From the NCBI GenBank assembly GCA_963930775.1, contig OZ005706.1, positions 4,640,545-4,704,544 of the forward strand: a DNA stretch of 64,000 bases, read 5' to 3'. Source of the stretch: Cliona cf. orientalis (taxonomy: Eukaryota; Porifera; Demospongiae; Clionaida; Clionaidae). Shown here one piece after another: positions 1 to 57,598 of the stretch. Both the position numbers and the translations under genes were made by a program. Under the pieces are notes generated by a model, which was given only the letters and a program-made list of their open reading frames with translations, ran no database searches and was not told the origin of the DNA. The first letter of the stretch is position 1; every line of letters starts with the position of its first letter.

Positions 1-2
1 CA

Positions 3-995
3 ACGTATGCAGATGCCAAGGAACCTCCTGTACTTTCTGCTATAAAGGAAGCAGCTATTCCATACAAAGCGCACTTTAAATTTAATAATTCTGCCTTATT
101 CGTGGAGAATTCTAGATCTGTTTCTTCATTTGATAAGCTGTTTTGGGTGTGGGGAATGGAAAGCTTTGAGAAATTCTTCAGAGAACTTGAAAAGGTTGAG
201 CCCCATAGCCTACAGCTGACAAGGGAAAATCTTAATGAGCGTCAAAACTTAGAAGCTGTAATTGAAGGTCTGAAGATGCAAATCAGAGTAGTTCTTGCTA
301 AAATTGATGTGCTACATCAAAAGCAATATATTTTACGGAAACATGAATCAGAAATTCTTCAAAATCAACATTTTACATATGAAGTAACAGTATCAAAGCA
401 AAGGCGAATTGAGATACCAGAAAATGTGGTTGTCACAAATTGTAATCAGTGTGAATTTACATGCCACTATCCCTGTCCAATTTCCAAAGATAATGAAAAG
501 TATCGATGCAAAGCAATGGATGGAGGTGGACCAGACAGTGCTCGCTGTACTGTGTGTCCCGGGAACTGTCCATGGTCTCAGCATATTAACGCAACATACC
601 GATTTGAAACTTATTATGAAATAGAGACTCAAACGTCAGACGATCTGAAGAAGAATTTGTTTGAGGCCATTGAAGGGAAGAGTCAGATTGAATCCATGAT
701 TGCTGGCATTGAAGAAGAACTAGAAATGCTACGAGGTGTGATTGTGGGCATGGTCAGCGAAGCAAAACGAAGTCTCGAACGATTACAGGATATCGCTCTT
801 AAGCCTAACCCACTGAGTGAGATTGAGTACATTGAGTTGCTAATGAAAGCCGAGAATTCGGAGAAAAGTCCGGGTTTTACTGAACGTATCAAGGTATTTG
901 AAATGATTAAAGATATTGTGAAAGCTCAAGGTGCAGTGGCAAGTGGGAAGAAAACTGACAACACATGGTGGAAGAATTTACACGCAAGGAAGTAG
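3..995 (+). CDS. C-terminal exon of a P-loop GTPase (receptor-GTPase family), 5' end outside the window
   Basis: The frame is open from base 3 to the stop at 993-995, about 330 residues. It begins just after the G4-like region (reads TYADAKEPPVLSAIKEAA), so the P-loop and switch regions lie to the left of the window. It continues with a coiled-coil-prone stretch and a Cys-rich module (CNQCEFTCHYPC, then CTVCPGNCPW, about nucleotides 432-580), then a second helical stretch. It aligns without gaps in most places with the end of the gene at 4809-18784, and several nucleotide stretches in the Cys-rich module are identical, so the two are recent paralogues. The whole visible part is one exon. There is no internal start; a GTG near 102 should not be taken as one. 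Whether this copy also has an Ig/FN3 ectodomain cannot be seen. Confidence 0.85.
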   Translation, partial: TYADAKEPPVLSAIKEAAIPYKAHFKFNNSALFVENSRSVSSFDKLFWVWGMESFEKFFRELEKVEPHSLQLTRENLNERQNLEAVIEGLKMQIRVVLAKIDVLHQKQYILRKHESEILQNQHFTYEVTVSKQRRIEIPENVVVTNCNQCEFTCHYPCPISKDNEKYRCKAMDGGGPDSARCTVCPGNCPWSQHINATYRFETYYEIETQTSDDLKKNLFEAIEGKSQIESMIAGIEEELEMLRGVIVGMVSEAKRSLERLQDIALKPNPLSEIEYIELLMKAENSEKSPGFTERIKVFEMIKDIVKAQGAVASGKKTDNTWWKNLHARK

Positions 996-3719: not shown

Positions 3720-3791
3720 ATGAAGTTGCATATACTATTGAATCTGGTCATTGTATTATCGGTCTTTCATTGCTACAGCTGCATACAAAAG
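3720..3791 (+). CDS. Candidate signal-peptide exon of the receptor-GTPase gene
   Basis: An ATG at 3720 opens MKLHILLNLVIVLSVFHCYS, a good signal peptide, and the frame reaches a GT donor (AAAAG/GTATGG) at 3791/3792. It is the only signal-like exon I found upstream of the first FN3 exon at 4809. The exon ends in phase 0, whereas the exons from 4809 on need phase 1. At least one more exon is therefore missing between them, or the true first exon is elsewhere. Confidence 0.35.
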
Positions 3792-4808
3792 GTATGGCTA
3801 CTTGCTTCGCGTGTGTTTATTTAAACAATACTCATTGTGTCCTGCTGCGCTGCATGTACCACATATACGGCTATGACCGGCCTGTGGGGGGTGGATCTAT
3901 AGTCTACATAGGGGCTGCCCCCATTAATACTATTTACCAAGTCGTCATTAGCTATGCATACACTCTCATGTGGAAAGGCTATCTACAATATGAAGCCGCT
4001 CACAGTGTCCATATAATATTACATAATAATATTAAATCTTATGGTTGTGAATGGCTGTAAGAGGTCATGACTAAAAATTATACTGATGCACACATCTTCA
4101 ATGATTGTGTATCTGTAATCTGGGTAAAAGGACCAGAATCTAGAGGCTCCTTCCGAAAACTTAGCTAAGCACGATTGAGGCTACGAAGTATGCACTATGA
4201 AAGTGGTCAAGCCAGCAGTAACACCATGCACCAATTGAGGAAAATAGTGTTTTACTTTGTACCTTCATGATAATAATGTAGGAAAAGCAATATGATGAAG
4301 AAAGCACAGGTTTGGAAGGTAAGATTCTAAATATCTGTCACATTTATATCAGAGGGAGATACACAAAGTGTAGCATTTATGTATATCAAATAGCATAAGT
4401 GTAGCATGACTTGTAAGACTCACCCTATACTGTTCTATGCAAATGCGACGATCATTGATACTAATGGATATACTAGTAAGGAGTTTGCCACCACGCGTAG
4501 CAGTGTTTACTTCCTTAGTTGCGTGAAAGGAGTAAACCTTACCGGTAGAGCTACATAGAGGCAGTCAGTGCATTTGCTCGACCCTTTACCACACAGTCAC
4601 AAATACTCTGCTGTCTGCTTTTATAGTTTACACACGAACTGCGAGCTGGATGATTCACCAGTATGTAGAGGAGTTGGGATGTTCTGTGCTTCGATCATTG
4701 GTGGTGATGTATAATTTAATTTTCAATGATGGTTATTCACTGGTTGGTGAGTGTCTCAAACGTCTGGCACAACCTTACACTGAGTAATTATAGCTATTTT
4801 TCCTACAG
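3792..4808. other. Presumed intron(s) or unassigned 5' part of the receptor-GTPase gene
   Basis: No full Ig or FN3 exon is recognisable. Near 4630-4690 one frame contains cysteines and ends at a phase-1 donor (ATCATTG/GTGGTG, about 4699) that would join correctly to VPPSRPENL of the first FN3. It may be the remaining end of an Ig domain, but its acceptor phase does not fit the signal exon. Confidence 0.3.
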
Positions 4809-6398
4809 TTCCACCTAGCAGACCAGAAAACCTGCATATATTGGAAATTGGTTCATCTTGGACTAGTCTACAATGGGAATGTCCATCTCACTCAGCAGAA
4901 TCGAGCTCAATATTTTCTCATTATGAGATCACAGTCATTGATAGCAGGGATGGAATAGGAAACATATTTTATTTCAGCCCCGAATACATGAACATATCTT
5001 TTTTCAATGTCACCAATCTTCAACATGAAACTCTGTATGAATTTTCAGTTACAGCAGTCTCTAAGTTTTGCGGCATTCTTGCTAGGAGTTTATCAAGTAA
5101 TTTAGTCCACTCTACCACAAAGCCCCAAGGTATTACTATCTTTCAGTGTAGATATATTACATTTAGAATTGAATTTGTGCACTTAACATTAATGCTATAG
5201 AGCAACATTTAATTTATGATCAGTAAGCTTAATTAGACCTCACCTTCTCCCATTTATCATATCCGTCACAATAAGCATTATAAAGATAGCTCCTTACCCA
5301 TTTTCATGATACAATATCAGATCGAGTAGAGGCTCATCCGGCTTGTGGTGCTCTAATAGCTGGATATGAAAGAGCAAAAAACGTGTCTGCCCTTGTGTGC
5401 AACGTATTCAGAGACAATCAACCAACAACAACAGTCTGGAGTACTGGCACCGTCACTTCAAGCGAGATTATTCCATTATCACAGAGTTCAGTATCTCTGT
5501 GTGCATCAGGTGGTATCTATGCAAAAAAATTAAGCATAGATACTTTAGCCCCTGATCTTGATAATGTGGTTGTATATTGTGGTACAAAAGAAAACCCAAA
5601 GCTAGCCAACTTCACACTGAGAATCTATAGTAAGAGCTGCTCTGATCTTTGGTGCTATTTACATTCTTATCTCTTTCATAGGACCTCCCATTTTGAAATG
5701 TAATGTTTCAATAAAAATTCTGGAGCATAGCACAAATGTTTCGATCAATCTTAATGATCAGCGAAATACTGTCTTTCCTAACCCTCAATATTATGCTTTG
5801 AAGAAGGACAGACACCTCTTGGCAACTCCTGATGACATCAATATTACCTTAAATTCATATTCAGTTTTGTTTCAGAACTTGTCTAGGGCTAATTCAGGTA
5901 ATTATTCAATGACAATCCAAAACTATGAACTGGGTTCATCCAAGGAAGTTGGTACATTCACTAGCACTTTTGAAGTTGATGTTCTCTGTGAGTTTTGTCA
6001 GTTTAATATAATTAGAGGTATCTTCAGTTTCCATTATTTCATATTAGATGGTCCGGAGATTCTACCAGGTATGAAGAAACACTATGTACTTTCTGGATCT
6101 CCAGTGTCTCTAATTTGTGGCTACAAGCTGGATAGCAATCCTCCAGCTAACATTACCTGGAGGGATCCTCGAAAGAAACCAGTAAAAGCAAGTAGTGTGT
6201 TCATCTTGGATGATGGACCAACAGTGGTTCGACTTAACATCTCTAATGCAAGCAATAGTGACAGTGGAACATGGATATGTAGTGTAGATGTTAGTGCTAC
6301 ATGTGTTCACAAGTCCATTGAGGGTAAGCTGAAACAAGACTGTCAAGCTATTACACACATAGGGAGCAAGAGCTTTGATATGGAATTGATTGTCATTG
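4809..6398 (+). repeat. Cassette 1: FN3-IgA-IgB-IgC
   Basis: Exons 4809-5129 (FN3), 5321-5629 (IgA, ends CGTKENPKLANFTLRIY), 5682-5987 (IgB) and 6048-6398 (IgC, LICGYKLDSNPPANITW). IgA lacks a clean start and follows an unusually long intron of 191 bases. Confidence 0.8.
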
Positions 6399-9300
6399 GT
6401 AAGTATTATTCTTAGGTGATATTATCATAAAAAGGGTACAGTGTAATCATGACTGCTCTCTGTAGACCGTACCAGCCAACCTTACAATTTGAGCATTGCT
6501 GACTGTGGTCTAACTTGCATTCAGCTTAGTTGGTACCAAGTGAACTTACCAGGAGTATCACGTTTTGAAATCACTTATGTTAATGAGGATGGAGAAGGTG
6601 CAACAGCAGCAGTTGATGGCAGCAAAACTACTCACAATTTCACTGAGCTCATACCTGGAAAGGCATACCACTTCAGTGTAGTGGCTGTATCAGTAGCTGG
6701 TGATGTTGTTGCGAGGAGTCCACAAAGTGGTCCTATCATATTTTCAGGTTTGAAATTGCTGACATAATGCGTAATATGAAGTGTATGTACATATTCTTTT
6801 TTACCTCTGCAAAGGTTTTGACACGCGTATGAGATCTATGCCATTAAGTGCCACACTCTTGGCTGATGATTTAGGAACTAAGAGCTTTACTGCATTAAAC
6901 TGCAGCATTCTTTCCAGCAATAAACCAGTCTCCATACTATGGAGTTTGGGAAATTTCAGAGAAGTCAGCTCTAACCAATCGATTGATAACGAAACAGCAC
7001 CAGAATTGTTCTACATTGAAGAAGTAATCAAGAGTACCAGCAAAAACTTCTTTACTCTAAGTCGTTTCATCATCCTCAACTTGACATCTGATTTTGATGG
7101 TGTAACTGTATTCTGTGGCACAAATGAAGATACAAAAATGGCTAATTTTAGTCTACGAGTATACTGTAAGTGACTAAATTGAATTAAAATTGTAGATAGA
7201 TAAAGCTTCTGTTTCTTGTCACTTCAGATCCACCAATTTTCAAGACTGGGAATTACACAGTTAAAAAAAGATGTGGAGAACAAAATGTTGAAATACACCT
7301 CAGCCTCACCCCTTTGCCTTTTCCTGCACCTGGCAAAATTAGGTTGGAGAGAAATAGTCAAAGCATTCAACAATTTGACAGCATTACTGTGGTTAATGGT
7401 TCAATACTCCTATTTGATGAGATAATTATAGAGCATGCCGGAATGTACTGTCTCACTGCCACAAATTATCGTCTTGATGATAGTAGCAGAGAAGTAGGCA
7501 CAGGTAGAAGTTGCTTTACACTGGATGTGATGTGTAAGTATGAACAGTAAAGCTATAATAGTGCTTATCCTTGTACCTCTATCTCTACAGATGGTCCCGA
7601 ACTAGTTCCAGGTCCAGCTGAGTACTTTGTGCTTTCAGGGTATCCAGTATCTCTCATCTGTGGCTACGATCTCAAGAGTAATCCTCCAGCCACTGTATCG
7701 TGGACTGACCCACTTAGAAATAGTGTCACAACAAATGATAACACAGAAGTGATCCAATTTTATATTGCAAAAGCTAGCCCGAAGAACAATGGTACCTGGA
7801 TATGTACTATTCACCAGAATGGTACAGAGCAAGATAAAAGTAAACATCATGAGATGATAATGATTGTTGTTTGTAAGTTCATTTTATCGAGCACTACAAG
7901 TACAAGTACAAGTACTAAACACTAACTTTCTTTTTTCATAGCTCCACCTGATCCTCCACATGATCTCTTCATCCGTAATTCTGGTCCTTCCTGGGCACTT
8001 CTCCAGTGGACAAATCCACAAGTGTTTAGCGGCTTTGAAATAACTTCCTTTCACAATGATGGAGTAGACAGCAAAATATTCTGTGTACAAAAAATGGAGG
8101 ATTTAAATTTCTATAATGTAACTGGACTTAAAACGAATGGATCCTATCATTTCACAGTTGTAGCTTTCTCAAGAGCTAGCAGTGTTATTGGGAGAAGTCT
8201 GCTGAGTAACCGAGCGCATTTTTCAAGTAATACCTGCATGAAATGAAACTACTTATATTAATTGTCACTTATATATGTAGGTTTTTCTGCCAAGAAATCT
8301 CAAGATATCAATAGCACTAAAGAGTTATTCACATTATCAGTAAAATGTTAGTCTGAATTCCATGTAGATAATTATGATCCATGCAGCTTGTTTCATCTTG
8401 GATTAGGTGGTCCAAGGTTGAAGAACTTGACAGTCAACATACTTGAGGGAATTGAGAATGCGGCATTTGACTTAGGTTCCCATGACAATAATATTACATT
8501 GGCCAGTTCAGTTAGCCTGAGTCGCACAAGCCATTCTAATATTGATGTTAACTTCTCTATAAGTAATGCCACCATATTATTTGCAAACATAACCAAGAAC
8601 CATGCTGGAACCTATCTCCTCAATCTCGTGTATTATTGTGTACATGATGATATCATGGAAAATAGGACAGAAGTTGGAAATCTCACATTAAATGTGCTGT
8701 GTAAGTTATTAGTTCCTTGTGAAATATGCCATCCTCATTGTAGCTAACATTACGGTATGCAGATGGCCCAGAAATGAGAAATGGTTCTAACAAAACTTTC
8801 TCACTAGAAGGAGATTCAGCATCTTTGGTTTGTGGCTACCAGCTTCATAGCAATCCCCCAGCCAACATCACATGGCTGTATCCCAATGGAAGCACAGTTG
8901 AAAACAGTGACAGGATCATCAGAGATAATAGGCCAGATTTGGTTCAACTCAACATAACAGACACTAGTGTTAGTGATGGTGGAAACTGGACTTGTAGAAT
9001 AGAAGTTCAACATACTTGTGTTTGGGAAAGGGAACAACTTTGTGGTGTCAGAAACATATCACAGGAATATAAAATTGAATTGGTTGTTATTGGTGAGTTG
9101 CATAAATCTATGATCATAATCAATTACATTTCATGTGACCACTTCCATAGTTCCTCCTAGCAAGCCACTTGACTTGAAAGTTGCTGACTGTGGTCCTGTC
9201 TGTATTCATCTCCAATGGCAGACCCCACTCAAACTAGGCCAGCCAACTTTATCGTACTATGCAGTAACTTACGTCAATGAAGAGGGCAGAGAATCTACAA

Positions 9301-12300
9301 TACAAACATATAAAAATGCTATCAGATTCAGTGAACTTGTACCTGGAACGACTTATCAATTTACTGTATTAGCCGCTTCAAAAGTGGGAAATGTTATAGG
9401 AAGGAGTCTTCCGAGTGATCCCCTAAAATTTCCAGGTAAATTAGCACTACTCTCGACGTATAAGACTGACATGATTTTCATTTCTTCATTATAATATCAT
9501 AGGCTTTGATACAGGTATCAAAGTTAAGCCACAAAGTGGATCAGTTGTTGTTGGCTTAGAAACAACTTCGACTAAAACTCTAAATTGTAGTATTGTTGCC
9601 AATAAGAATATCTCCTTACTCTGGAGTGTGCAATACTTGAATGGTACACGACTTCAGCCAGTTTTGAGTAGCACAGCACCAAATCTCTTCAATATTACTA
9701 CCTCTAGCAATCATAGTACATACATCCAGAGCCACTTTCAAATCTTAAATTTGACCTCAGACCTGGATTATGTCATAGTATTTTGTGGTACAAAAGAAGA
9801 ATATCAGCTTGCTAATTTCACATATAGGATCTATCGTAAGGTTTAAACCATGCAGTAATATAATCTATGTGAGCCAGTGTATAATGCATTAATTTTAGGA
9901 CCTCCTGTTCTACAAGGAGCAGCAAATATCCCTGTTAAGGAGAATAATAGCATCACAGTGAATCTATGTCCATCTGGGCATCAAGTTGCTTTTCCTCAAC
10001 CACACTCTGTTTCTTTACAAAAATTAGATGACAATATACCTATTGATGATAGCATTATTCTCTCTGATTGTGGTGTGAAATTCCTCCAAGTAAAAAAAAG
10101 ACATAGGGGAAGTTATCAGTTACAGGTTATTAATTACTATGAGGGCCAAGTTGGAACAGATGCAGGAAATTTTTCTCTTAATGTGGAGTGTAAGCATTGA
10201 ATTGATTTATTTGTCATACTGTAGATAATAATCCTATATTGGCATAGATGGTCCAGAAGTTATGCCTGCTTCTGTAGAGTACACTTGTCTTGAGAACCGT
10301 CCTATTTCCCTTGCCTGTGGCTACAACCTTGAAAGTAATCCACCAGCCATCATATCCTGGAGTGATCCTCAAGGAAGACTTGTGGAGAATAATGATTTTT
10401 ACACCATTGATAATGGACCCAAGGAGGTTCAGCTAAATATTTTCAATGCTAAAAGGGAAAATAATGGAACATGGAAGTGTAGTCTGACTACAAAGTTCTC
10501 AAATGCTACTAATCGAACTCTGGAGTTGTATGTACCGCTAATAGTCATTGGTAAATTGTTTTTTCTTCTATTGGTTTTATATCTATCACAGTGGCCTTAT
10601 ATATGCATGTAGGGTCCCCTAGTGAGCCTTTAAATATTTCGGTGGACACAAGAAGTTTCAGCCAATTAACCATTAGCTGGAATTCACCGTTGGATATCGG
10701 ATATCCTTACCTATCTCACTATGAACTTGGATTCAATAATGTTACATACTGCCTAAATAATTCAACTAATTCTTATATCTTCACTGAACCTTTCCAGAGT
10801 TTGTCACACAATCTCACACTATCAGCTGTTAGTGTATTCGGTGGGCATGAGTTTAAGAGTTCACAACATGTCATCAGAGTAAACATTTTTAGTAAGTGGA
10901 TAATCTTGGCTTTCTTGTAGTAGTTTAATGAAGTGTTAGTTCACAGATCATGTCAGGTGGTAATGTAAAACATACAATTGATTAAAATAGTACTTGGTCT
11001 TGCATTTAACTGTTTCAAGAACCCACATCTATAACAACTATTGCATTATTGCTGTATGAATACAGATTCTGTAGATTATACTGTCGAAATGACTGATCCA
11101 CAAGAAACAGTAAATTGTAGTTCAGTTTACAGAAGTACTGAATATAAGGAGGTTGATCAACCACAATCCATGCATGGAGTTACATACAGTGAGTAAAGTT
11201 ATCCTTAGAGATAAAACTGATTAATATTGAATCTTTGTTTTTCATACAGATCCTCCACGCTTTGCAGACAATCACACTGAAATATTCCCTGTGAAGGAAA
11301 TGGCTCAAAACATATATGTTGAGTTCAGAATGCTTCCAGATAATAGTAGTATGGCTGGGTTTAGCGGAACAATGTGGGAATTTGATGGAGAATTAACTGA
11401 GGCAGAGCCACCTACTTTAGTAAATTCTACCTACCTACTGTTCAATGAGATAACAAGAGAACATGGAGGAGTGTATACACTATCGATTACAACCTGTCAT
11501 GGAGGTGATTGTAATGTCAGTTCTGGAAGAATTAAGGTGGATGTGCAATGTAAGTATTATTAATAAACAGTAAGATTATGATAAATTTAGCAATGTTTGC
11601 AGATGTTCCTGAGATATCAAACGGTCCAAGTAGGCAACATGCTACGACTGGAGATCCTGTGTCACTAATTTGTGGTTACAATCTTAAGAGCAATCCTCCT
11701 AGCAGTGTCACCTGGAGTAATCCAAGAGGAGAGAGAGTGCTCAACAGTGAGAAGTACTCAATGGATGATGGACCAGAAGTGGTTCAGTTGAACATAAGCA
11801 ATGTGACTGAAAGTGATGGTGGGACATGGAAGTGTTCATTGCAGATGTTGGATAAAGATCAGAAAGAGAATATGTTCAATATTAGCTTGAGTGTTCTAGG
11901 TATGTAATTTCTGTTTGTTTGGTGTATTCTATTATGACATTATATATTTCACAGTTCCTCCTGGCAAACCGAGTAACTTGTCAGTAACTGAAATTACTCC
12001 AAAATCAATTAATCTAACATGGAGCAGTCAAGGTCACTCAATCTCACACTATGAAGTGATGTTTGCCAATGAAAGTGGAAATGAAATTATCCACGTCTCA
12101 CAAACTACCAGTGCATTAATAGATAAACTTAGTTACAACAGCAAGTACAGATTTCAAGTGGTGGCTGTTTTAGTTGCAGGAAGTCTAGTGGAAAGAAGTC
12201 CACCAAGTGATCCAGTTTACTTTTCAGGTAAGTGCACTACTGTTTGCAATACTCAGACACAAATAAATGTTTGTTTTTAAAGCAGCAATTAGACATAGTG

Positions 12301-15300
12301 TTAACATCACAACTGAACCAGAAAATGGTACGATGTTCACCGATCTTGAAGGATCTATGAATTCTACAAGTTTTACTTGCAATATTTTTCACACAATCGA
12401 CTCTGAGCAGCAGAATACAGTGTGGAGATTGCAGAAACCAAAAAGCAAAGCTTCAGAGTTTATCTTCTATAGTAATCTCTCTTCAATGTTTCATGCTCCT
12501 AATGACAGTTATAAAAACAACAAATTGATAGTTCATAATTTGACTTCTGAACTAGATGGTGTGACTATTTTTTGTGAGAATGAAGTTGAAATCAAGCTAG
12601 CCTTCTTCACTTTGAAAATCAATCGTGAGTTCTTCAGTTTCAAAGATTTACCAAGACCTAATTTTAATAATTTGTAGGTCCTCCAAACTTGGAGAAAAAC
12701 ATGGTGTACACAGTAAAGGAGGGCGAACGTAATGTTGTGATGAACCTCAGTCTTTCACCTCCAGCTTTTCCTCCCCCAAGTTTTTATAAGTGGACGAAAC
12801 CAGCAGCATATGCCACTTTGAACAATAGTGCAATATCCTTTGATAACATTACAAGGAAACATGCTGGTGTATACACTGTGATGGCTACAAACTATCACTT
12901 GAATGACAGCAGCAGTATGATTGGTACAGATACAGGAAATTTTTCATTGGATGTTGTTTGTAAGTTTTCCGATTAATTTTAGGTTTATTTTCTCTCCGTT
13001 TAACATTAATTTATTCTAACAGATGGCCCAGAGATGCAAAAGAATGAAGAAGATGTTTATGTTCTTTTAGGATTTCCAGTATCATTGGTGTGTGGCTATA
13101 ACCTCATTGGTAATCCTTCTGCCGTGATCTCTTGGACAGATCCTCAAAATAAGCAAGTAATTAACAGTGACAGGTATTGGGTGGACACTGGACCAACTGT
13201 CATTCAACTAAACATCACTGAGGCTAGCAAAATGGACAATGGAACATGGAGGTGCACAGTGAATGTGTCTAGTTCATACAATTCCTTTGATCCAATGACA
13301 AGCAACTTTTACTCTGAAGCAATAGAGATTGAAATCAGTCTTACTGTTGTTGGTGAGTACACAATACTATCTATGAAACTAATTTTACATAAAGCCATTA
13401 ATTGTACATATATTTCATGAAAATGTAGTTCCACCAAGCAAACCATATAACTTATCACTTATTGATATGAACTCGAATTGTACTCAACTGCGATGGAGTG
13501 CACCAACTGAAGATGGGTTTCCTGTCTATTCATACTATGAAGTTCTCTTTGTTAGCAATAGAGGAGATGGAAGCATAAATCAAACTTCAGAAAATTTTAT
13601 TAACTATACCATCATTGAGCTCAAAGGATCATATGAGTTTTCTGTAGTGGCTGTATCTAAAGCTGGTGATGTTGTGGGAAGGAGCCTGCGAAGTGATTCA
13701 ATTCTACTCACAGGTTTGTTGGAAAAATACAACTGACTATAACACTTCATTGAGGTAATATAATATAATTGTGCTTCATTTCATGCTTAGGTTTTGTCAC
13801 TTCTAGCAATTTTGATCCTCCAAGTGGTTCTGTTTTGCCTGGTATTCAAGGAACTATCAATTTTACCACTCTAAGTTGTGCAATTGTCTCTGGAGATATG
13901 AACAGAACAGTTGTGTGGAGTATCCAGTTGCTCAGTGATAAGGAAATCACACAGATTAATGATTCCAAAGAGGCGGGATTTCTTATTCATGGTTCCTTGC
14001 AAAATAAGCTGACAGTCCATAATCTAACCTCTAACTTGGACGGTGCTGTGTTGTATTGCGGTAAAGAGCAAGAACCTCAACTAGCAAACTTCACCTTAAG
14101 AATTTACCGTAAGCATCAATTAATGTGTGGCTGTATGTATATAGAGTAATATCCTTGTTGTATTTATGATTTCAGATCCACCACGGTTTCAAAACAATAA
14201 CATAGAGAAAAGTATTGCGGAAAATAAGACGAATATTACAATAGACTTTGGCCTCACCCCTTTACTCTTCCATGTACCTAGCAAGATCACACTAGAAAAG
14301 GAGGGACAGAGAGGACCAATACCTCAAAAATTGGGCGACATTACTGTAATAAATGGATCGATACTCTTCTTTAAGTTAATAACAAGATATCATGCTGGAC
14401 AATACACATTGACTACTACATACTATCATCAAGACAATACTTCGCAAGAAGTGGGTACATCTGTTGCCAAATTAATATTGAATGTGACATGTAAGTGATC
14501 ACAGTCATAAAAATTACACAAGTATTGGCTTAATTATTGAATGCCTTTCTTCCTACAGATGGTCGAGAATTAGTGCCTGATCCAACTATACAATTTGCTC
14601 TTTTGAATGATCCAGTATCTCTCATCTGTGGCTACAATCTTGACAGTAACCCTTCAGTAAATATCACTTGGACTAACCCCCAAGGGAAGGTGGTACACAA
14701 TAGTGATAGGTACATCCTCGACAATGGACCAGAGATTGTAAGACTGAATATTACAAATACTTCCGGTGATGATCATGGAACATGGACATGTAACTGTGCA
14801 AACTTTGAGTTCATGCCCAAGTTGACTGTAGTAGGTTAGTCATGATGTTCATTTACGAGTGCAAATTGTGTATGAGCTCAACTTATCTCCTTCAGTTCCT
14901 CCTGGTACACCAAGAGCGGTTTCCAACAGCAGTATTGGTTCAACCTGGGTCAAGCTTAAATGGGGTATACCTATCATTTATTCAAACATTATACATTATG
15001 AAGTCACTTATGCTGATCATAATGGAAGTGGAAAGACAATCAGCATAGAACACATTGCAGTTAATATCACTGGTCTTACACCTGAAACAACATATTATTT
15101 TGTAGTTGTGGCAGTCAGCTCAGCTGGTGGTGTTATTGGGAAAAGTCAACCAAGCAATCCAATTCAGTGTCGTACTACTATTATGAGTAAGCAATTAATT
15201 ATTTCTATATTATTAAATTTTGTAAGAGTATACTCTTGACGATTATTGTACAGATTTTGTTACAACCGATCCACCAAGTGGGTCTTTAGTGGCAGATTAT

Positions 15301-18300
15301 GAAGGCAGAAATGTAACTTTGAGATGTAATAGATTTCTGGATGGTCACAAATCTATAACTTATTGGAAAAGTGGTCAATCTTCCTATGATGGATATTTAC
15401 AAAACAAATCGACCATTTCATTGATCTTGACTGCTAACCATGATGATATGAAAGTTTATTGTGGTACAGAAGAGCAGCCTGAGATGGCCAACTTTACATT
15501 AAGGATCTATCGTATGCAAAGTGTAATTCTTACTACTGAATTTTTTTTATGCACTATATAATATTTTCAGGTCCACCAAAGCCTCAGCTAAATATCAATA
15601 GGAAGCCCATTGTTGGAAATGAGACTTTGCAGGTGGATTTTGATAATCTTTCAGCTGCCTTTCCCAAACCTTTCTTCCTTCAAGTGGAGAAATTTGGTCC
15701 ACCACCAGATGATGTAACCATTGTAAATTATTTCACTCTAAGACTTTTCTTTCACAAAATAGTTAAAGAAAATACTGGGACTTACACTATCACGGCTGCC
15801 AACTATCATCTAAAGAATGAGACAGAACAAATTAGTTTGGGTGCTACTAATCTCACTCTTAATGTTCAATGTAAGGTGTGCAACTTTGTAAATGTACACT
15901 ATAATAACATTTTGTTATCTTTCTGAAGATGGTCCAGTTTTGACAGAGGGTCGAAGAGAATACTATGCTCTTCTTGGTGATTCCTTATCATTGATTTGTG
16001 CTTACAACCTTGACAGTAACCCAGTAGCAGTTATCACCTGGATAGATCCTCTGCAGCAACCAGTGACAAATAACAGCAACTACCAACAGCTTGATGGACC
16101 AGAGTTAGTTCAATTGAACATACCCAGAGTAAGTAAAAGCCACAATGGAATGTGGAAGTGCAACATCTTGGTAGCAAATGGTGCAGATCTGATAGGAAAC
16201 CAAAGCTATGACATTCAAGTCAATGTAGTTGGTAAGTTTGTATCTTTGTCTATAGAATAGAAAAACACAATGGATTTATGCAATGATGCAATCCACAGAA
16301 ATTCCCATGTCAATTAATGTGTCTATCAATGCCATGGGACATACATGGGTTGTTCTCAACTGGACATTTCCTGAGAGTATTTCTTCAAATATTAAACACT
16401 TGGAGATCACTACCGTTAATTATAAGGGAAGTGGTAGTATTGTGCCAGTTGATCATAAAAGGTTGACTATAAACATCACTGATCTCGACCCAGACAAAGC
16501 TTATGACTTTAGCATTATGGTAGTTTCTGATGTTAATGGTACTATTGGAAGAAGTCTTCCTAGCTATCGTGTAAGAAAAGGTAAGTAATATGTTATATAT
16601 ACACAAAATTATATATTACGATAATTATGACTGGGTGATGTAGATAAAACTTAACCATGGTACGAAATACGTAATTTCATTTCAGAACCCTTTCCGTGGA
16701 ATGATATACTACTATCTATAGTAATAATCATGACTGTAAGCATGATCACATGTTTAACTCTGGTTCCATGTCTTATTAAGAAGCGTGGAAATAAGACCAC
16801 TAAAACTTTGGAGACAAAACAACAGCATGCTCCTACACAAGATCAAGAACTAGAACAAATTAGCTATGAATCAGAATCAAACAAAGTTCCAGGGAAACCT
16901 AGTGGACAGCCAATCATTTCAAACATTACCACTAACAGTGTATTCCTATCTTGGAAAGAACCAGAAAGCAATTCTGAACTTGTGATAGGTTATACGATTT
17001 TGTACCACATTGCTTCTGAAGATATACGAAAACAAGAGCAATACCCAATTGTTGGAAACATACAAACTGCTGAAATAAAAGGACTTAAATCCAAAGTAGC
17101 ATATGTATTCAAAGTACGTCCAGAAGGTAAGAATGGTAGTGGGCCTGAAAGCGATCTGAGTGAAATGACTGAAACCAAACAATCACTAGCACACTTTGTC
17201 AAAAGTTGTTCACAACTGATTGATAGGAAATCCGGTCTTGAAATCTTTAAACCACCAACTGAATGTAGAAACAGTGCAAAAGGAAAGCAGAACAGGTTTT
17301 CTAGGTGTGATGTTATTGGAAGATCAAGACCAGTAGGAACACCAAATGAAAGGGTCCTATTGCTTGTTGGAGCTACTGGAGCTGGAAAGAGCACCTTGAT
17401 CAATGGAATTGTGAACTATATCATGGAAGTTGGCTGGAATGAGGATTTTAGATTCAAAGTTATCTCAGAGGGTGGGGGAAAATCCCAGTCCCAGAGTCAA
17501 ACAAATCAGATAACTGCATACTCTTTCCATGGATCCTGCCTTCCCTACACACTCACAGTCATTGACACTCCAGGATTTGGTGACACCAGAGGACTCGAAA
17601 GAGATAGAGCTATCGTAGACCAAATCAAGGAACTTTTCTCCATTGGAAAATCTGAGAGTATTGACCAAATTCATGGCATTGGCTTTGTTTCCCAAGCATC
17701 CAACCCTCGTCTAACACCAACACAAAAGTACATCTTCGATTCAGTCTTATCGATTTTTGGTAAAGATATTGCTTCCAACATTTTTCTCTTACTGACCTTT
17801 GCTGATGGTCATGATCCTCCTGTACTTGCTGCTATAAAGGAAGCTGCCATACCTTATCAAAAAGAATTTACATTTAACAATTCTGCTCTTTATGCCAATC
17901 AATCTGATTCGTTCAATGAGATGTTCTGGAATTTGGGGAAGACAAATTTTCAGCTATTTTTCACGGAATTTGAGAAAGTAGAAGCTCACAGTCTACAACT
18001 GACTAGAGAAACACTAAAAGAACGCCAGCAACTAGAAGTCATAGTAGAAGGCCTTAAAACACAAATTAAAGTTGGCATTACCAAAATTGACGAACTTCGT
18101 CAAAAACAACGTATTCTGCGCAAGAGAGAAGCTGATATTCTACAAAATGAACACTTCACATATGAACAGACTGTTACTAAACAGAGAGAATTAGAGCTAC
18201 CTGGTAATGTATTTGTCACCAACTGTCTCCAATGTCATTTCACATGCCACTATCCCTGTCCAATTTCCAAAGATAATGAAAAATATCAATGCAAAGCAAT

Positions 18301-18784
18301 GGATGGAGGTGGACCAGATAGTGCTCGCTGTACTGTGTGTCCTGGTAACTGCCCGTGGTCTCAGCATGTTAATGCATCTCATCGTTTTGAGATTTTCTAT
18401 GAAGTGGAAACCCAGACATCAGATGATCTTAAGAAGAATCTCAATGAAGCCATTGAAGGAAAAATTCAAGTTGAAAACATGATTACCAGCATAGAAGCAG
18501 AGCTAGATATGTTGCAGGTAGCTATTGTTGGGAAAGTCAGGGAAGCCAAACGGAGCCTCGAGAGGCTACAGCAGATTGCTCTTAAGCCTAATCCACTCAA
18601 TGAGATTGAGTACATTGATTTATTGATCAAGAATGAGAAGTCAGAAAAAAGCCCAGGCTTTACTGAACGCATCAAGGCATTTGAAATGATAAAGGAAGTG
18701 GTGAAGCATCATGATGATGCATTGGATACTGAGACAAAAATTGATGTTGCATGGTGGAAAAACGTTATGCCGAGCAATATCTGA
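4809..18784 (+). CDS. Giant Ig/FN3 receptor with cytoplasmic FN3 and GTPase domain (receptor GTPase)
   Basis: Thirty-four exons, all joined by phase-1 introns of mostly 50-80 bases, give about 3,880 residues without the N-terminus. Order: eight cassettes of FN3, IgA, IgB, IgC (two with a reduced IgA), a ninth FN3 (16299-16580), then one 2.1-kb exon (16686-18784) with a TM helix, a basic stop-transfer sequence (KKRGNK), a cytoplasmic FN3, a P-loop GTPase domain and a coiled-coil/Cys-rich tail. FN3 and Ig domains are extracellular adhesion modules with many NxS/T sequons. The GTPase must lie inside the cell by topology. The C-terminal half is a paralogue of the gene at the left edge. I know no named animal receptor with this domain order. 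The exon chain is well supported by lengths divisible by three; the 5' end is unresolved. Function in recognition or adhesion signalling is inference. Confidence 0.85.
6466..7872 (+). repeat. Cassette 2: FN3-IgA-IgB-IgC
   Basis: Exons 6466-6747, 6815-7165, 7228-7533 and 7591-7872. All four domains are complete. The IgB carries the family pattern INGS-I-L-F...HAG-x-Y in the form VVNGSILLFDEIIIEHAGMY. Confidence 0.85.
7942..9092 (+). repeat. Cassette 3: FN3, IgA reduced to a 66-base exon, IgB, IgC
   Basis: Exons 7942-8226 (FN3), 8281-8346 (22-residue remnant in the IgA slot), 8407-8700 (IgB) and 8763-9092 (IgC). The mini-exon keeps an acceptor, a donor and phase 1 on both sides, so it can be spliced in or skipped without changing frame. 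Confidence 0.75.
9151..10550 (+). repeat. Cassette 4: FN3-IgA-IgB-IgC
   Basis: Exons 9151-9435, 9503-9835, 9899-10189 and 10248-10550. The IgA shows the conserved LNLTSDLDYVIVFCGTKEE motif around the second Ig cysteine. Confidence 0.85.
10613..11899 (+). repeat. Cassette 5: FN3, IgA reduced to a 123-base exon, IgB, IgC
   Basis: Exons 10613-10891 (FN3), 11066-11188 (41-residue remnant in the IgA slot, contains TVNCSS), 11250-11549 (IgB) and 11603-11899 (IgC). The FN3 has lost the usual VPPxxP start. The small exon again keeps phase 1 on both sides. Confidence 0.75.
11955..13352 (+). repeat. Cassette 6: FN3-IgA-IgB-IgC
   Basis: Exons 11955-12227, 12283-12624, 12678-12959 and 13023-13352. In this copy the IgA motif reads CENEVEIKLAFFTLKI, less conserved than in the others. 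Confidence 0.85.
13429..14834 (+). repeat. Cassette 7: FN3-IgA-IgB-IgC
   Basis: Exons 13429-13713, 13791-14108, 14176-14490 and 14559-14834. The IgC is the shortest of the set (276 bases) and ends KLTVV before the next FN3. Confidence 0.85.
14896..16231 (+). repeat. Cassette 8: FN3-IgA-IgB-IgC
   Basis: Exons 14896-15186, 15254-15511, 15571-15870 and 15929-16231. The IgA is short (258 bases) but keeps VYCGTEEQPEMANFTLRIY. A lone ninth FN3 (16299-16580) follows and leads into the membrane exon. Confidence 0.85.
16686..17190 (+). other. Transmembrane helix and cytoplasmic FN3 of the receptor GTPase
   Basis: After the acceptor at 16685 the frame reads a juxtamembrane EPFPWND, a hydrophobic stretch (ILLSIVIIMTVSMITCLTLV, about 16707-16766) and a basic KKRGNK. 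From about 16889, PGKPSGQPIISNITTNSVFL opens a complete FN3 ending near 17185. By topology this FN3 is inside the cell, which is rare for this normally extracellular module. The same exon runs on into the GTPase domain without an intron. Confidence 0.8.
17340..18784 (+). other. P-loop GTPase domain, coiled coils and Cys-rich module
   Basis: G1 P-loop GATGAGKST lies at about 17368-17394 and G3 DTPGFGD at about 17566-17586. The G4 position carries TFAD (about 17797) in place of NKxD, as in AIG1/IMAP and septin-like GTPases where this motif is relaxed. Helical, charged segments flank a Cys-rich module at about 18223-18362 (CLQCHFTCHYPC, then CTVCPGNCPW) that could bind zinc. By the G motifs I place it with the AIG1/septin group of TRAFAC GTPases; the exact family is uncertain. 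The lack of introns across 2.1 kb contrasts with the 33 small exons before it. Confidence 0.75.
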
Positions 18785-22689: not shown

Positions 22690-41174
<18,485 letters not shown>

Positions 41175-41343: not shown

Positions 41344-42079
41344 TTAATCATCCTTTAATGGCTTATGAAAAATATACTTTCTGCAAATAAATTTAGCTAA
41401 ATGACAACTAAATATTACTCCTACAGTGTACATCATCATTCCACCTAGTTTGGCGATGGGCTCCATCCTTGGAGAGAGCAATGTCCACACCAGGAATGCA
41501 CTACCAACCACCACTCTGGCAGCAAAGAAGAAAAACACAAAGCCAAAGTCTATGAGTAGCGCCAAGTTGCCAGTGTACTGGCCTTTCTGTTTCAAAAACC
41601 ATCGATACTGGAGAATGGGATTTGTAAATTCACTTGCTCCCAAGACTGCTATGAGTTCACATCCATACAGGTTGAAGAGCAGTCCGTGGAAAAATCCATA
41701 GAGTGATAGTATATGGTGGGCCAACATGACAATCCCTTCTGTCTTCATATAGAGGCACCAGATGAGGTCAAAGAGAAAGTACCCAAAACTGATGATGATG
41801 ATGTTGCAGTGAAGTGGATCGGGTGAATATCCAATATAATTAAAGGGCCACGGACCCAGGATGAATACTGAGATGAAGCNNNNNNNNNNNNNNNNNNNNN
41901 NNNNNNNNNNNNNNNNNNNNNNNNNNNNNNNNNNNNNNNNNNNNNNNNNNNNNNNNNNNNNNNNNNNNNNNNNNNNNNNNNNNNNNNNNNNNNNNNNNNN
42001 NNNNNNNNNNNNNNNNNNNNNNNNNNNNNNNNNNNNNNNNNNNNNNNNNNNNNNNNNNNNNNNNNNNNNNNNNNNNNNN
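41344..42079 (-). CDS. TLCD5: TLC-domain membrane protein (TMEM136/TLCD5-like), 5' part lost in gap
   Basis: From the gap to the stop at 41344 the minus strand is open: ILGPWPFNYIG, GYFLFDLIWCLYMKTEG, MLAHHILSLYG, GASEFTNPILQYRWFLK and a basic end. These match the TRAM-LAG1-CLN8 multipass domain, including the HH pair and the S/A-E-x-TNPxLQxRWF motif of the TMEM136/TLCD5 group. The upstream side of the gap reads as a pyrimidine tract, so the exon start probably lies inside the gap. The neighbour at 43064-45526 is its paralogue. First exon(s) are unknown. Function in membrane lipid homeostasis is inferred from the family. Confidence 0.75.
41880..42079. other. Assembly gap (200 N)
   Basis: Unresolved bases that remove the 5' coding part of a TLC-domain gene. 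Open frames drawn across it are artefacts. Confidence 1.
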
Positions 42080-43063
42080 ACAGAAAAATAGAGGACAGGC
42101 AATGATTAAATTACAACTAAAGTAGTGAAAGTACGAGTGCTCGGCCCCAGCATAAACTAAGTCTCTTTCCCAGTCGGGCTACAACGTGCTGAACATAGTA
42201 AATATTTTTAGTTTTATACCTCGTATAGTTCTGATCTGGAGAGCGGTAGTCCCACTTGAACAATAAATGTTGAAGATCCTAAGGTACTGCACCCATAAAC
42301 CAAGTTTCGAGATTATTGCAGGTGATTTAGTGCGTGCACTAAAATTGTGAAGTTGGCTCAGACACTCGAACATGGAAGGTAGTGGCGGTAGTCTTCGAGC
42401 TCTTACGACGAAAATAAACGAGGAAACAAGTTTAGACTACGATATTTTAGCTAAAATACAATAACTTCATCTAGTTCTTGGTTCAAAAGCCTTCGCACTG
42501 GCTTTGTTGACAAGTAGAGTCGACTGCAGTTGACCAGCTGTTTTGTCCGCCATGTTGGAATTCGCCTGTGCAAAATCCCCATAGTGTAAACGTAACTTCC
42601 GCATGCGTGATTCACTTCCGGGTGCGTAAGGGTCTTCGTGCAGACTGTAGTTACTCTAACCCCAACCACACCCTATTTATTATACCAACCTACCTGCTTT
42701 AAGTTATAGTATTGGCTCCAAGAAAGGGTTAACAATGACGACATGATTATCATGATCACACCACTCAGGAACCTATGAACACTGATACAACGTTAGAACA
42801 CTAATACCTACATGTGTGTATATATTATAATATAGCTACAAGGTTCTTATTTCTGCTACTAGTTCTATTATGTAGTGGTGCATGTATGTACAAACTTCCA
42901 AAAAATTATTGTGGCTGGTTCTGTGGAGAAGTATATAATATTATATTCATGTATACAAAATAATATAATTATCTCATATAATTATTATAGCTTACCAAAA
43001 CTCCTAATAATATTATTATCATGTAGAATAAAAATGGTTACTAATAATAATTACTATAGTAGC
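42080..43063. other. Spacer between the two TLC genes
   Basis: Should contain the first exon and promoter of the gapped TLC gene, but I cannot place them. A plus-strand mini-ORF at 42373-42465 (MEGSGGSLRALTTKINEETS and ten more residues) has no recognisable relatives. The stretch around 42590-42650 is richer in CpG than its surroundings and could be promoter-like. Confidence 0.3.
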
Positions 43064-45526
43064 TCAGTCTCTCCTTTGAGGCCTGCTGCTAAGGAAGTAC
43101 TTTCGATAGAGAAACATGCACAGTTGAATTCCAAACACCAAACTGATGATATAAAACGCTTGGCCGCCAGCTTTGGTGATGAGATCAACCTTGGGAGAGG
43201 TCTGACACACATAGTGGAACACAGTCCCCACACCGAGCCTTGCACACATAAACAATATAACGAATATCCAGTCGAGCAGTAGAGCTTTCTTGCCGTGGTA
43301 GTGACCAGTGGCCTTAAGAAACCACCTCAGCTGGAGCAGTGGGTTAGTCAGCTCACTAGCACCCATCACTGCCGTCAGTTCCGAGCCAAACCTCTTCTGG
43401 TAGAGAACGTAGGACATACTAAATATGGACACGACATGATGGGCTAGCATCACTGGTCCCTCGGTCTTCATGTACATGCACCACACAAAATCGAACAAGA
43501 AGTAACCAAGGCTGAGAACCATTGCAGCATTGTGAAGCTTAGTGTTGGCTTCCCCAAGGTAGGTGAATGGCCAAGGACCTGTGATACACGCTGAGGTGAA
43601 GCAGAGGGAGGTAGAGAGAAAGGCATGGGCAACAGTGATCAAACGACAGTTCCACTCAGCAGAGCGCTTGCGGTTGATGGCATGAAGGATAAAGTAAGAG
43701 TCAGTCCACATGAGGAAGCTCCCAATGGCTGCCAGCAGTAAGCTGTGAGAGCCGGGCCTAGTCATGGCATCCCCTGCTGAGATAGTGGCTTTCAGAAGCA
43801 CATCTTGGGAATCATACTGCAGAAAATGAGCATTGAATAGGATCAGTGATACACTAGAGGGGCTTTATGCTCATGAATCACCTCACACCTCAGTCATACT
43901 CTAAGATAGCATGGAGTTAAGTATTTACTGGTGCTTCCTCTACCTAGAGATGCTATACACGTATGCTATAGGAAGGTAACCCCTACCGTTCAGAATCACC
44001 TGGCTACTTTGGGGGTGGGGTGGGGTGGTACATGTAGTATGAGTTATTAAAAAATGTAGGATTCACTTTAGAACCTCCCCTGCCTTAGAATAGTGTACAT
44101 AGCACCTCCCTCTACTGTTATAAAGAGTTATTTTAGTGAGATTGGTGATTAGATCATTACATTCTTATGGTTCTGGAAGAATGGTGGGGTGGGCAGTTGC
44201 ATGCACAATACGAACATTGACCTATGCACACTCAAGACATGCAGGCAGGTGTACTCCTCAAGAAAACACAATGATGATACAAGTGTACCATGTTTATGAA
44301 CAGCTACACAACGCTATACCTGAAAGGAAATGCAAATTTTGTATGGGCACATACATGTAGGAACCTATGCCTACTACAAGTAAAATTAATCAGAGCATAA
44401 GCTTCCTGATAGAAATTTCCACTTCAATTTCTATTTCAGCTTCCTATCACATACATGTACATGTACAAAACTTGATGCACTAGATACAAGTATCTGAGAC
44501 CTCAATAGTATTATTATAGCTGTCCACCCAATCAAGGTGTGAATAGAGTACATGTACATGCAATTGGACCACAACACTGCCTACAGCACTGTTTTACTCT
44601 ACACAAAATAGTACTGAAAAAAATGCTATTATAAATATTGCTGCTAATCTAGACTACAGTTCAATAAGAGTGCATCTCACCAATAAGACTGTTCTGTCGT
44701 CATAAAGTTTATACTTGGCATGTTGCATCCATCCAAAACTAATATCACCCATGTGAGGCCTTGGAGGGAGGGGGTCATTCCCGTAGGCACTGTGTCCAGA
44801 GCTGCGACACACGGTCAAGATGCAGTCAAATGATCAAGGCACTTCTTGGGGATCAGTCAAGTGGTGTTCTGGGCCCTATCTCTAGTACAGCTAGGTGGCC
44901 AAGAGGCGTGGCTGAGATTTTTCACATGCACAGAGTTAGTTGATAGTGAACCGGTCAAGGGAAAAATTCACTGTGGTCAAGCGGTCAAGGCCATTTTTGG
45001 ACAGTCAAAAATCTTGACCATGTTTGCAGCACTGAATGCAGCACCGATGGGAGTGACACCCCCCCCCCCCCCCCCCCCCGGAAGATTTGCATGCTAGCTT
45101 AGCATCAGAATGTACTGACGTCTAGGGTGTGGAGGTCATAACATTTATAAGAGTTACTAGCAGTATACATCAGAATTAGTCTATAGTATAATACTATGTT
45201 TAATACAGGGGAGGGGGTGGGGGTGGTTGGGGGTTTATAAAGCTGTGGATAGACTTCGAAGCGACATGCACATTCACTGGGGAAGTAAAAAAAATCATAC
45301 ACAATACACGTACTAAAATTAATTTAGAACTTTCCAAGTCGGTGTACATGCAAGAAGAACGGCATACGGTACCCCCCTCGCTGCAGATCAGGTGCACTAG
45401 ATGAAACTACTCTTACCACAACATCTGTTTTCATACTACCTTCAAGAGGTACAAAGTACGTACATGTACTTCGATTTTAATATAGCTCACCAGTGCTTCT
45501 TGTGAAACTCCCAGCTCTACAGACAT
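43064..45526 (-). CDS. TLCD5: TLC-domain membrane protein (TMEM136/TLCD5-like), complete
   Basis: Two exons: 45491-45526 (MSVELGVSQEAL) and 43064-43816 (YDSQDVLLKATISAGD to the stop), joined in phase 0, 262 residues. It has several TM helices, the LAHHVVSIF histidine pair, GASELTNPLLQLRWFLK and a basic C-terminus (SRPQRRD). Length and motifs fit the TLCD5/TMEM136 branch of TLC proteins. An alternative first exon at about 44689-44755 (MGDISFGWMQHAKYK...VLL) also ends in phase 0, so two promoters are possible; that exon ends in YDDRTVLL, strangely like the start of exon 2. The intron of 1.67 kb contains no other gene. It diverges from XRCC2 with 185 bases between start codons. Confidence 0.85.
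45059..45079. repeat. Poly-C tract
   Basis: About 21 consecutive C. Similar C or G runs occur near 46861-46874, 54927-54945 and 62595-62620. They are low-complexity DNA prone to length errors. Confidence 0.8.
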
Positions 45527-56300: not shown

Positions 56301-57598
56301 CCATTGAAAGGAAGCCAGTCGTGACCCCTCGACCTCAACTGACCCCCGACTACTACAATGCCCCCCGTAGACCACCAAAACCTCCCCACCTTCAGCCAAG
56401 CACTCATGGTGCTAAGGGAAAGTCCGTTACTCTGCCACGCCTGGCTACTGATGCTTCAAAGGCCCCGAACATTATCGCTCATGAAAGACAAGACAGCAGT
56501 GATAGTGACAAAAGCGACTATGAACCCCTTCCGGAGTTGCCCACCCCGTCCCCCCGCACTGTACCCCCTCCACTACCACCTAACCACCCAAGCCGGGACA
56601 AAGAAAACAGACCCATCCCCCGGCCAAGAAGACAGCTGTCTGGTCTGACTACCCCGCCTCCAACTCCTCCCAAACCAAGGTCCAAGACCCTGCCCCCCAG
56701 AGCCAGCTCTCACATTGTCCATCCTCCCCCACCAGCTGAGATTTTAAAGCCTCTCCTGGTTATTGACAACAAGGACTTGAGTTGGCCTTACAGTCACGAA
56801 AATGTCTATCCAAGTGGTGTATGTTGCTCCACAGAGCTTCATGACACGCTGATTGTCACAGATGTGTTCAACCACTGTCTCAGACTCATTGACTACAAAG
56901 GAACGTTCATAGAGAAAGTGGGCAGAGAGGGAAGGTCGGGAGGTCAATTCAAGGAGCCCTCTGCTGTTACAGTAGATAGTAGTGGTCACATATATGTCAC
57001 TGAGCGAGATAACCCACGTGTGCAAAAATTCACTTCCACTGGAAAATACATTACCAAATTTGGACAGAAGACCCTGCGAGGAAGTCAACTAAGTGACCCC
57101 ATTGCTATAGCAGTCACTTCCAATGGATTAATTGCTGTCTCTGACTGGGACAAAAACCAGATTTTCTTGTTTTCTAGTGGAGGAAAGGTTGCCAATACCA
57201 TTGCAAAGGAAAGTAGCTTTCTAAAGCTGCCGGCTGGAATTGCCTTCAACAGGCTGGGTCACCTACTGGTAGCTGATAGAGGAAATCATTGTGTATGGGA
57301 ACTGACTATGAGTGGAGATCTAGTGAGGAAGATTGGTTCCCATGGCTCCAATCCAGGACAGCTCAACTTCCCTTATGGCATCGTCATTGATGATGAGGAT
57401 AGAATCATTGTTTCAGAAAGTGGAAATTCCAGAATTTCAATTTTCTCTCAAATGGGTGACTTTATTCGTTGCTTTGGAGAGCTGGGAACTGAGCCGGGCA
57501 AATTTGACCATCCAAGACATCTTTGTTTAAATAGCAGAAAACAGTTGATAGTCGCAGATGAAATGAACCAAAGATTGCAGGTGTTTGATAGTTTTTAA
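50312..57598 (+). CDS. TRIM-NHL protein: RING, B-box, coiled coil, Pro-rich linker, NHL propeller
   Basis: Exons 50312-50845 and 55577-57598, phase 0, 851 residues, separated by a 4.7-kb intron. Residues about 14-60 form a RING finger (CAVCLDFL, CAHSFCKEC, CPSC), about 118-160 a B-box (CKQHHRQFEYFCVDC...HRDHEF), about 180-330 a coiled coil and about 395-560 a proline-rich stretch with several PxxP sites and YEPLPELP. About 575-850 hold six NHL repeats (PSAVTVDSSGHIYVTERDN and so on) ending in VFDSF. It belongs to the TRIM2/TRIM3/TRIM71 class of ubiquitin ligases and RNA regulators. The filamin-type Ig domain usual in that class is missing and the proline-rich part sits in its place. I chose ATG 50312 because it directly precedes the RING; translation of the second exon begins at 55577, not at the ATG at 55448. 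Confidence 0.9.
51418..51558. mobile_element. 141-bp inverted-repeat element in the TRIM intron
   Basis: GTTAGAGACCTCGTCTAATG and GTCTCTACGC...AAGAG at the left are mirrored by CTCTTAAAGGGCGTAGAGACC and GGTCTCTAAC at the right, about 38 bases with mismatches. A second, more decayed copy lies at 58331-58450, so this is a small local family. Confidence 0.6.
52328..52376. repeat. Compact 49-bp hairpin
   Basis: TCCTGGGTAAGC and GCTTACCCAGGA form a perfect 12-bp stem. The loop contains a second palindromic core (GCGCCCATGGGCGC). It could be a tiny MITE or a structured intronic element. Confidence 0.5.
53812..54357. mobile_element. Possible 546-bp inverted-repeat element in the TRIM intron
   Basis: ATCTCCCCAGTAGC at 53812-53825 and its complement GCTACTGGGGAGAT at 54344-54357 form perfect 14-bp ends. 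No target duplication is clear and no coding region is visible inside. Confidence 0.4.

Follow-up and report, generated by a model that had tools for sequence, protein, structure and literature searches.

Animal single-pass receptors usually end inside the cell in a kinase, phosphatase, TIR or death domain, and we know of none that ends in an AIG1/septin-like GTPase. Here we analyzed a 64,000-nucleotide stretch of the genome of the sponge Cliona cf. orientalis (contig OZ005706.1, positions 4,640,545 to 4,704,544, forward strand; hereafter the window), in which a gene modeled on the plus strand at positions 4809-18784 is predicted to encode such a receptor: an ectodomain of immunoglobulin (Ig) and fibronectin type III (FN3) domains joined by one transmembrane (TM) helix to an intracellular FN3 domain, a P-loop GTPase and a cysteine-rich module. 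Among the systems compared, the nearest described design is that of the sponge Ig-TIR (TLR-like) receptors, which likewise combine an Ig ectodomain with an intracellular animal-defense module (PMC6208332, PMC8242945, PMC12909245). In contrast to these receptors, the intracellular part of the Cliona protein consists of FN3, a septin/AIG1-like GTPase and a Cys module instead of TIR, and no TIR domain was matched in the terminal exon by Pfam at E values up to 1.

Other known proteins share single parts of this design. FN3 domains are also found in the single-pass receptors that our FN3 sequence matched in the PDB (integrin beta-4, receptor tyrosine phosphatases, ROBO and neogenin); integrin beta-4 has them inside the cell, and to our knowledge none of these receptors ends in a GTPase. 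Septins, which are soluble and lack an ectodomain, supply the nearest solved G domain by profile, and the Pfam Septin family matches the focal exon above its cut-off; unlike in septins, however, the match is partial, covering 7-78 of 280 profile positions. Nucleotide-dependent assembly is established both for septins and for AIG1/GIMAP proteins. With the latter, the focal protein has in common tandem arrays, FNN at the G5/IAN position, and a P-loop GTPase that Pfam matches to AIG1 above the cut-off. The FN3-GTPase-Cys cassette recurs in SNTX proteins such as P0091 of Geodia barretti, which is 46% identical across 86% of the query, but the N-terminal half of P0091 is made of MACPF_SNTX, helical and thioredoxin-like domains, where the focal protein instead has Ig/FN3 domains and a TM helix. 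In a study of AIG genes of the snail Biomphalaria, some of them carry a TM or a death-fold partner, none was found to encode a signal peptide, and the sponge Amphimedon is said to be without AIGs as far as known (PMC7053062); the words "fibronectin" and "immunoglobulin" have 0 occurrences in the main text of that article. Our literature search, which had partial and mostly open-access coverage and so is weak evidence of absence, gave, among the papers listed, no title or opening of an abstract that describes an Ig/FN3 receptor ending in a septin/AIG1-like GTPase.

The intracellular half of the protein is encoded by one terminal exon (16686-18784, plus strand), delimited by reading frame, Pfam and the exon model, which runs from the TM helix through FN3, GTPase and Cys module and is open up to its stop within a frame of 709 codons (16655-18784). 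A preliminary description of this DNA, made from the letters alone, had placed a TM helix, basic residues, FN3, GATGAGKST, DTPGFGD and a Cys module in one exon, and all are present in this frame. The TM helix (16709-16777) is followed by KKRGNK and peaks at a hydropathy of 2.56 over 19 residues; it is the sole stretch of the 32-exon model above 1.8, the threshold on which, as hydropathy alone, all TM calls here are based, and the next-highest region reaches 1.69. The FN3 domain after it (16898-17164; Pfam fn3, E = 4.9e-10) would lie inside the cell. Pfam matches and a motif alignment place the AIG1/septin-like P-loop GTPase at 17357-17806, with G1 at 17369-17395 (GATGAGKST), G3 at 17564-17584 (DTPGFGD) and a G4-like TFAD at 17795-17806. 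The profile search of this domain that the preliminary description had proposed returned AIG1 (E = 1.2e-7), Septin (7.5e-7) and MMR_HSR1 (5.5e-5), all, like the fn3 match, above the curated cut-offs. In the zinc-binding-like, Cys-rich module (18224-18367), eight Cys and one His are invariant across 41 aligned rows, and this tail probably binds metal (zinc).

Joining of this intracellular half to an Ig ectodomain can be read directly in related genes. The window opens with the 3' end of an upstream tandem paralog (1-995, plus strand, stop at 993-995; G000:C18), whose last exon encodes Ig-TM-FN3-FN3-GTPase-Cys tail in one uninterrupted 900-codon frame, and all five frames scanned upstream of that exon pass the Pfam cut-off for Ig or FN3. 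Of the best 120 of 2,076 homologs, ten, the tandem paralog (P0017) among them, bear a precomputed Ig family, and a TM-grade hydrophobic stretch precedes the P-loop in each of the ten; the Ig domain was located before the TM helix by Pfam in P0012 and P0017, and by a W-x-C motif in the other eight. When the Ig-TM part of the paralog was used as the query, four proteins were matched in all, the query included. Since the paralog and the homologs with a single open reading frame (ORF) carry Ig, TM and GTPase together, fusion at the level of the family is independent of the inferred splice in the focal gene. The fused Ig/FN3-TM-GTPase architecture proposed earlier is thus backed by the tandem paralog and single-ORF homologs, and also by the sequon topology and the receptor-dominated clade described below.

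For the focal gene, a model of 32 exons with AG/GT borders (4809-18784) yields 3,817 residues with a single stop at the very end. Its 31 ectodomain exons (4809-16580, plus strand) comprise nine FN3 exons, eight type-C Ig exons, and six type-A and eight type-B Ig-like exons. These types were assigned by eye and mostly recur in the order FN3-IgA-IgB-IgC. The chaining script allowed phase-1/phase-1 exons alone, and some borders were set by hand from repeat-to-repeat similarity, so the exact borders belong to the model; two short candidate exons chosen by the script (4627-4746 and 11066-11188) were excluded. Pfam was run on 20 of the 31 ectodomain exons: all six FN3 and all five type-C Ig exons among them passed a curated cut-off, but none of the nine type-A/B exons did, six of which gave sub-threshold Ig matches. 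The last ectodomain exon (16299-16580; fn3, E = 2.9e-7) is a juxtamembrane FN3. Here the earlier description stands corrected in part: the chain does run into the TM exon in our model, but the junction joins 16580 to 16686, not 16231 to 16686. The interval from 16231 to 16299 is a separate intron, and the FN3 exon stands between it and the splice to the TM exon. The gene probably starts upstream of 4809. A candidate signal-peptide exon beginning with ATG (3720-3791, plus strand; MKLHILLNLVIVLSVFHCYSCIQK) would encode a hydrophobic leader and has a phase-0 donor (AAG/gtatgg); it could be joined in frame through a candidate 85-base exon (4662-4746, plus strand) that is entered in phase 0 and left in phase 1; position 4627 offers another acceptor, which is out of phase with the donor at 3791.

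The two sides of the TM helix differ strongly in their content of N-x-S/T sequons. The modeled ectodomain (3,126 residues) holds 113, relative to a shuffle mean of 43, and 0 of 2,000 shuffles reached 113; the 668 residues after the helix hold 6, relative to a shuffle mean of 4.8. This asymmetry fits a secreted outside and a cytosolic inside. Among the relatives forming one clade with the focal protein (see below), basic residues outnumber acidic ones in the 15 residues after the most hydrophobic stretch in 26 of 30 members, and after the TM helix in 21 of the 22 whose stretch reaches the threshold. By these features the protein is predicted to be a single-pass (type I) receptor, with one TM helix between a glycosylated ectodomain and a cytosolic domain.

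To place the gene among its relatives, we built a tree of the GTPase region with 127 rows, consisting of 121 of the 129 proteins offered and six loci from the same genome. Eight proteins with no P-loop pattern or fewer than 430 residues in the region were dropped (P0050, P0064, P0069, P0079, P0123, P0126, P0130 and P0131). The same rule removed locus L015, with its variant P-loop; L007 was omitted since its frame is that of P0017, as were P0001 and P0122 since they overlap P0002. The focal and paralog types fall within one clade of 30 rows (SH-aLRT, 100), of which 27 carry the TM label. The hydropathy threshold assigns it to 22 of these; the other 5 (P0002, P0005, P0006, P0007 and P0019) received it because, in our judgment, the predicted ORF starts inside or just after the TM helix. 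The rows below threshold are P0015 (1.39, with a TM-like stretch by eye), P0022 (0.92, starting in the helix by comparison with P0018) and P0053 (1.54, a 473-residue ORF). Outside the clade, the TM label is carried by P0082, which lies far off, and by P0025, P0028, P0099, P0119, P0120 and P0124. Over the whole tree the label requires 7 changes, relative to 30.3 in shuffles, near-copies favoring a low count. Within the clade, focal-type and paralog-type genes form separate groups (support 93 and 98), each spanning several contigs. Among the listed homologs, at least two TM-type members lie on each of seven contigs (sizes 943217, 300713, 684372, 252489, 662769, 867050 and 676335, equal-sized contigs being taken as the same contig), which suggests that tandem clusters of TM-type genes also occur elsewhere. 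The species named among the best 120 homologs are the sponges Dysidea avara and Geodia barretti, the coral Montipora foliosa and the fish Gadus morhua.

Conservation is concentrated in the GTPase and Cys/coil parts. Over the part from the GTPase to the end (474 codons), the tandem paralogs are 71.5% identical, with pN of 0.161 and pS of 0.681; dN/dS is about 0.10, at a dS of 1.79 that is near saturation. By this measure the GTPase is under purifying selection. Across 11 single-ORF proteins (55 pairs), median pairwise identity was 0.745 for the GTPase and 0.78 for the Cys/coil part, but it fell to 0.538 in the membrane-proximal Ig and to 0.436 in the linker/FN3 part.

Of the nucleotide-binding motifs, G1 (GxTGxGK) is kept in 40 of 41 aligned rows, the exception reading GATVAGRT, and G3 (D-T-P-G-x-G-D) is invariant. 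At G4, 31 rows have TFAD and the other 10 have TFSD, TYAD, TFCD or TFTD; FNN occupies the G5/IAN position in 40 of 41. A GTPase-only profile (10 sequences, FN3 excluded) matched 40 solved sequences in the PDB at E values up to 0.1. Septin-family chains, among which we count CDC3, CDC10 and CDC11, made up the first 34 and 35 of the 40, with Septin-2 the best (E = 1.1e-6 over about 115 residues); the remainder were ABC, PilT and DotB ATPases, and no GIMAP was among the 40. When an alignment including FN3 was searched instead, FN3-bearing chains were among the 60 matches listed. Septin membership calls for the whole septin domain, including the C-terminal unique element, and a plain septin was rejected because of the short extent of both the Pfam and the PDB match. 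The AIG1 match meets the Pfam gathering score (31.8 bits relative to a cut-off of 27) over positions 3-127 of 212 only, and resemblance to the AIG1 conserved box was seen by eye alone (RLTPTQ). The AIG1/GIMAP definition asks for all of G1-G4, G5/IAN and the conserved box, as given in PMC7053062. Because Pfam matches the AIG1 and septin families about equally well, we describe the domain as septin/AIG1-like and, on these profiles, file it under neither family; the earlier label holds as a resemblance but not as septin membership. Plain membership of the SNTX family was likewise rejected, because no MACPF_SNTX, helical or thioredoxin-like domain was found in the terminal exon or the 20 scanned ectodomain exons.

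The FN3-GTPase-Cys cassette is also attached to other proteins of the same genome. In a stonustoxin-like gene (two adjacent frames, L038:7544-8755 and L008:1099-3480, at about 10.942-10.946 Mb of G000 C1), the cassette is preceded by MACPF_SNTX (E = 3.7e-9), Stonustoxin_helical (2e-25) and Thioredoxin_11 (2.1e-18), and neither frame has a TM-grade stretch by hydropathy. A minus-strand frame of 1,770 residues at about 15.28 Mb of C1 (L049:644-5956) begins with a TM-grade stretch (2.8) and continues with seven FN3 domains and a GTPase with a variant P-loop; it also holds a Death-like segment below threshold (PF00531, E = 0.0031, 18 bits relative to a cut-off of 22.6), and inspection by eye of the surrounding stretch gave no clear Ig frame. 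At nine more cassette loci, five on C4, three on C14 and one on C1, the frames that were read show no TM-grade stretch ahead of the P-loop, and the proteins are presumably soluble. Among the best 120 homologs, precomputed MACPF_SNTX occurs on six and PF00531 Death on three. Being joined to receptors, pore-former-like proteins and Death-like proteins is a usual mark of a shared signaling module, and by this guilt by association the cassette may be one. Clusters of GTPase relatives whose frames, as far as read, have no TM-grade stretch ahead of the P-loop were seen at 6.73-6.79 Mb of C4 and 7.67-8.02 Mb of C14, some copies with internal stops.

Mainly because the cassette is common to receptors, pore-former-like and Death-like proteins, our preferred interpretation is a single-pass receptor GTPase that signals by ligand-driven assembly of its G domains. 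We give it a probability of about one half. Architecture, conservation, G1/G3 motifs, constraint and shared cassettes enter this interpretation as sequence evidence; the signal peptide, the joining of the focal exons, the binding of ligand and of GTP, the assembly and its partners are inferred. About 31 Ig/FN3 domains outside the cell would bind a ligand (microbial, matrix or self/non-self) or make homophilic contacts, and the TM helix would link them to the intracellular FN3, the septin/AIG1-like GTPase and the probably zinc-binding tail. Clustering of receptors would raise the local concentration of G domains, letting them meet, and GTP would favor their pairing or polymer growth. The resulting assembly could recruit other cassette proteins: the TM-less GTPases, the MACPF/stonustoxin-like protein and the Death-like FN3 protein. 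A more specific version, in which this is a receptor class with a GTP-dependent polymer output whose G domains nucleate assembly of cassette proteins, including those resembling MACPF/SNTX pore formers and Death proteins, is distinctly doubtful. If it were true, early animals would have had a homotypic pathway from receptor to effector, like that of the TIR and death folds but GTP-switched.

Several observations weigh against the preferred interpretation. The uniform phase of the exons was imposed on the model as a condition and is not an observed result, and the candidate signal-peptide exon is linked to the gene only tentatively. In the GTPase, G4 reads TFAD rather than NKxD, and similarity to septins spans only about 115 residues. 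On the tree, starred branches force at least six changes of the TM label, so a single origin is not shown. The Death-like segment of L049 was not listed by a scan of the whole frame at E of 0.01, and a PDB search with this segment found no death-domain chain.

The strongest rival is an organizer of adhesion and cytoskeleton, in which an Ig/FN3 adhesin makes cell-cell or cell-matrix contacts and its septin-like domain templates a cortical scaffold, with no defense signaling, in a mode of working like that of integrin beta-4. We regard it as possible, though well short of even odds. In its favor, PDB sequence searches with the FN3 adjoining the GTPase match adhesion receptors as well as integrin beta-4, and septins are the nearest solved G domains. 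Against it, the cassette also occurs in a MACPF_SNTX protein and next to Death-like segments, which points to defense or cell death rather than pure structure, and divergence is faster in the Ig parts near the membrane than in the GTPase. We consider it unlikely that the protein is a trafficking receptor, in which a dynamin- or GIMAP-like GTPase governs how a scavenger or adhesion receptor is internalized or recycled instead of signaling downstream, even though the AIG1 match lies above the Pfam cut-off and some GIMAPs are membrane anchored according to PMC7053062.

Two further alternatives are far less probable. A pseudo-GTPase, having lost GTP binding or hydrolysis and kept the fold for protein interaction, would account for a G4 of TFAD or similar in all 41 rows and for the one deviant P-loop, yet near-universal G1 and invariant G3 speak against it, and variant G4 forms (TxGD, TxCD/E) are known from invertebrate AIG1 proteins, as reported in PMC7053062; we hold this to be very improbable. 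Slighter still is the chance that there is no fusion, the TM-GTPase exon being a gene of its own adjoining an Ig/FN3 gene. The database ORF call P0002 does begin at a Met within the exon, but this first Met sits within the TM helix, which means that a transcript of the exon alone would begin mid-helix. In two other ORFs, P0004 and P0010, similarity starts at the acceptor (WPFPWKD; EPFPWND) and the sequence upstream of it differs, and Ig precedes the TM helix in one frame in the paralog and nine further homologs. Since the first Met lies inside the helix and similarity begins at the acceptor, separate transcription of the GTPase exon, the outcome that the preliminary description had named as fatal to its proposal, is unlikely on sequence grounds. 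An independent GTPase gene was rejected because of the in-frame Ig-TM-GTPase paralog and homologs, chance insertion of a retrogene because of the dominance of receptor forms in a clade with members across many contigs, and an assembly chimera because of the same architecture on other contigs.

If the receptor is real, animals have receptors in which a GTPase is itself the intracellular output domain, and the known range of single-pass receptor functions is wider than described. The architecture is found again on several contigs of relatives, with an output cassette that is common to pore-former-like and Death-like proteins. It would then make it possible to test how recognition is coupled to defense or self/non-self responses in an early animal lineage, probably sponges.

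Elsewhere in the window, the minus strand at 24557-35414 holds more frames that look like FN3 by eye, perhaps another large FN3 gene. Two related minus-strand frames at 41344-43864, beside a run of unread bases, resemble multi-pass membrane proteins and appear TLC-domain-like by eye, and a plus-strand frame of 725 codons at 55421-57598 is TRIM/NHL-repeat-like, also by eye.

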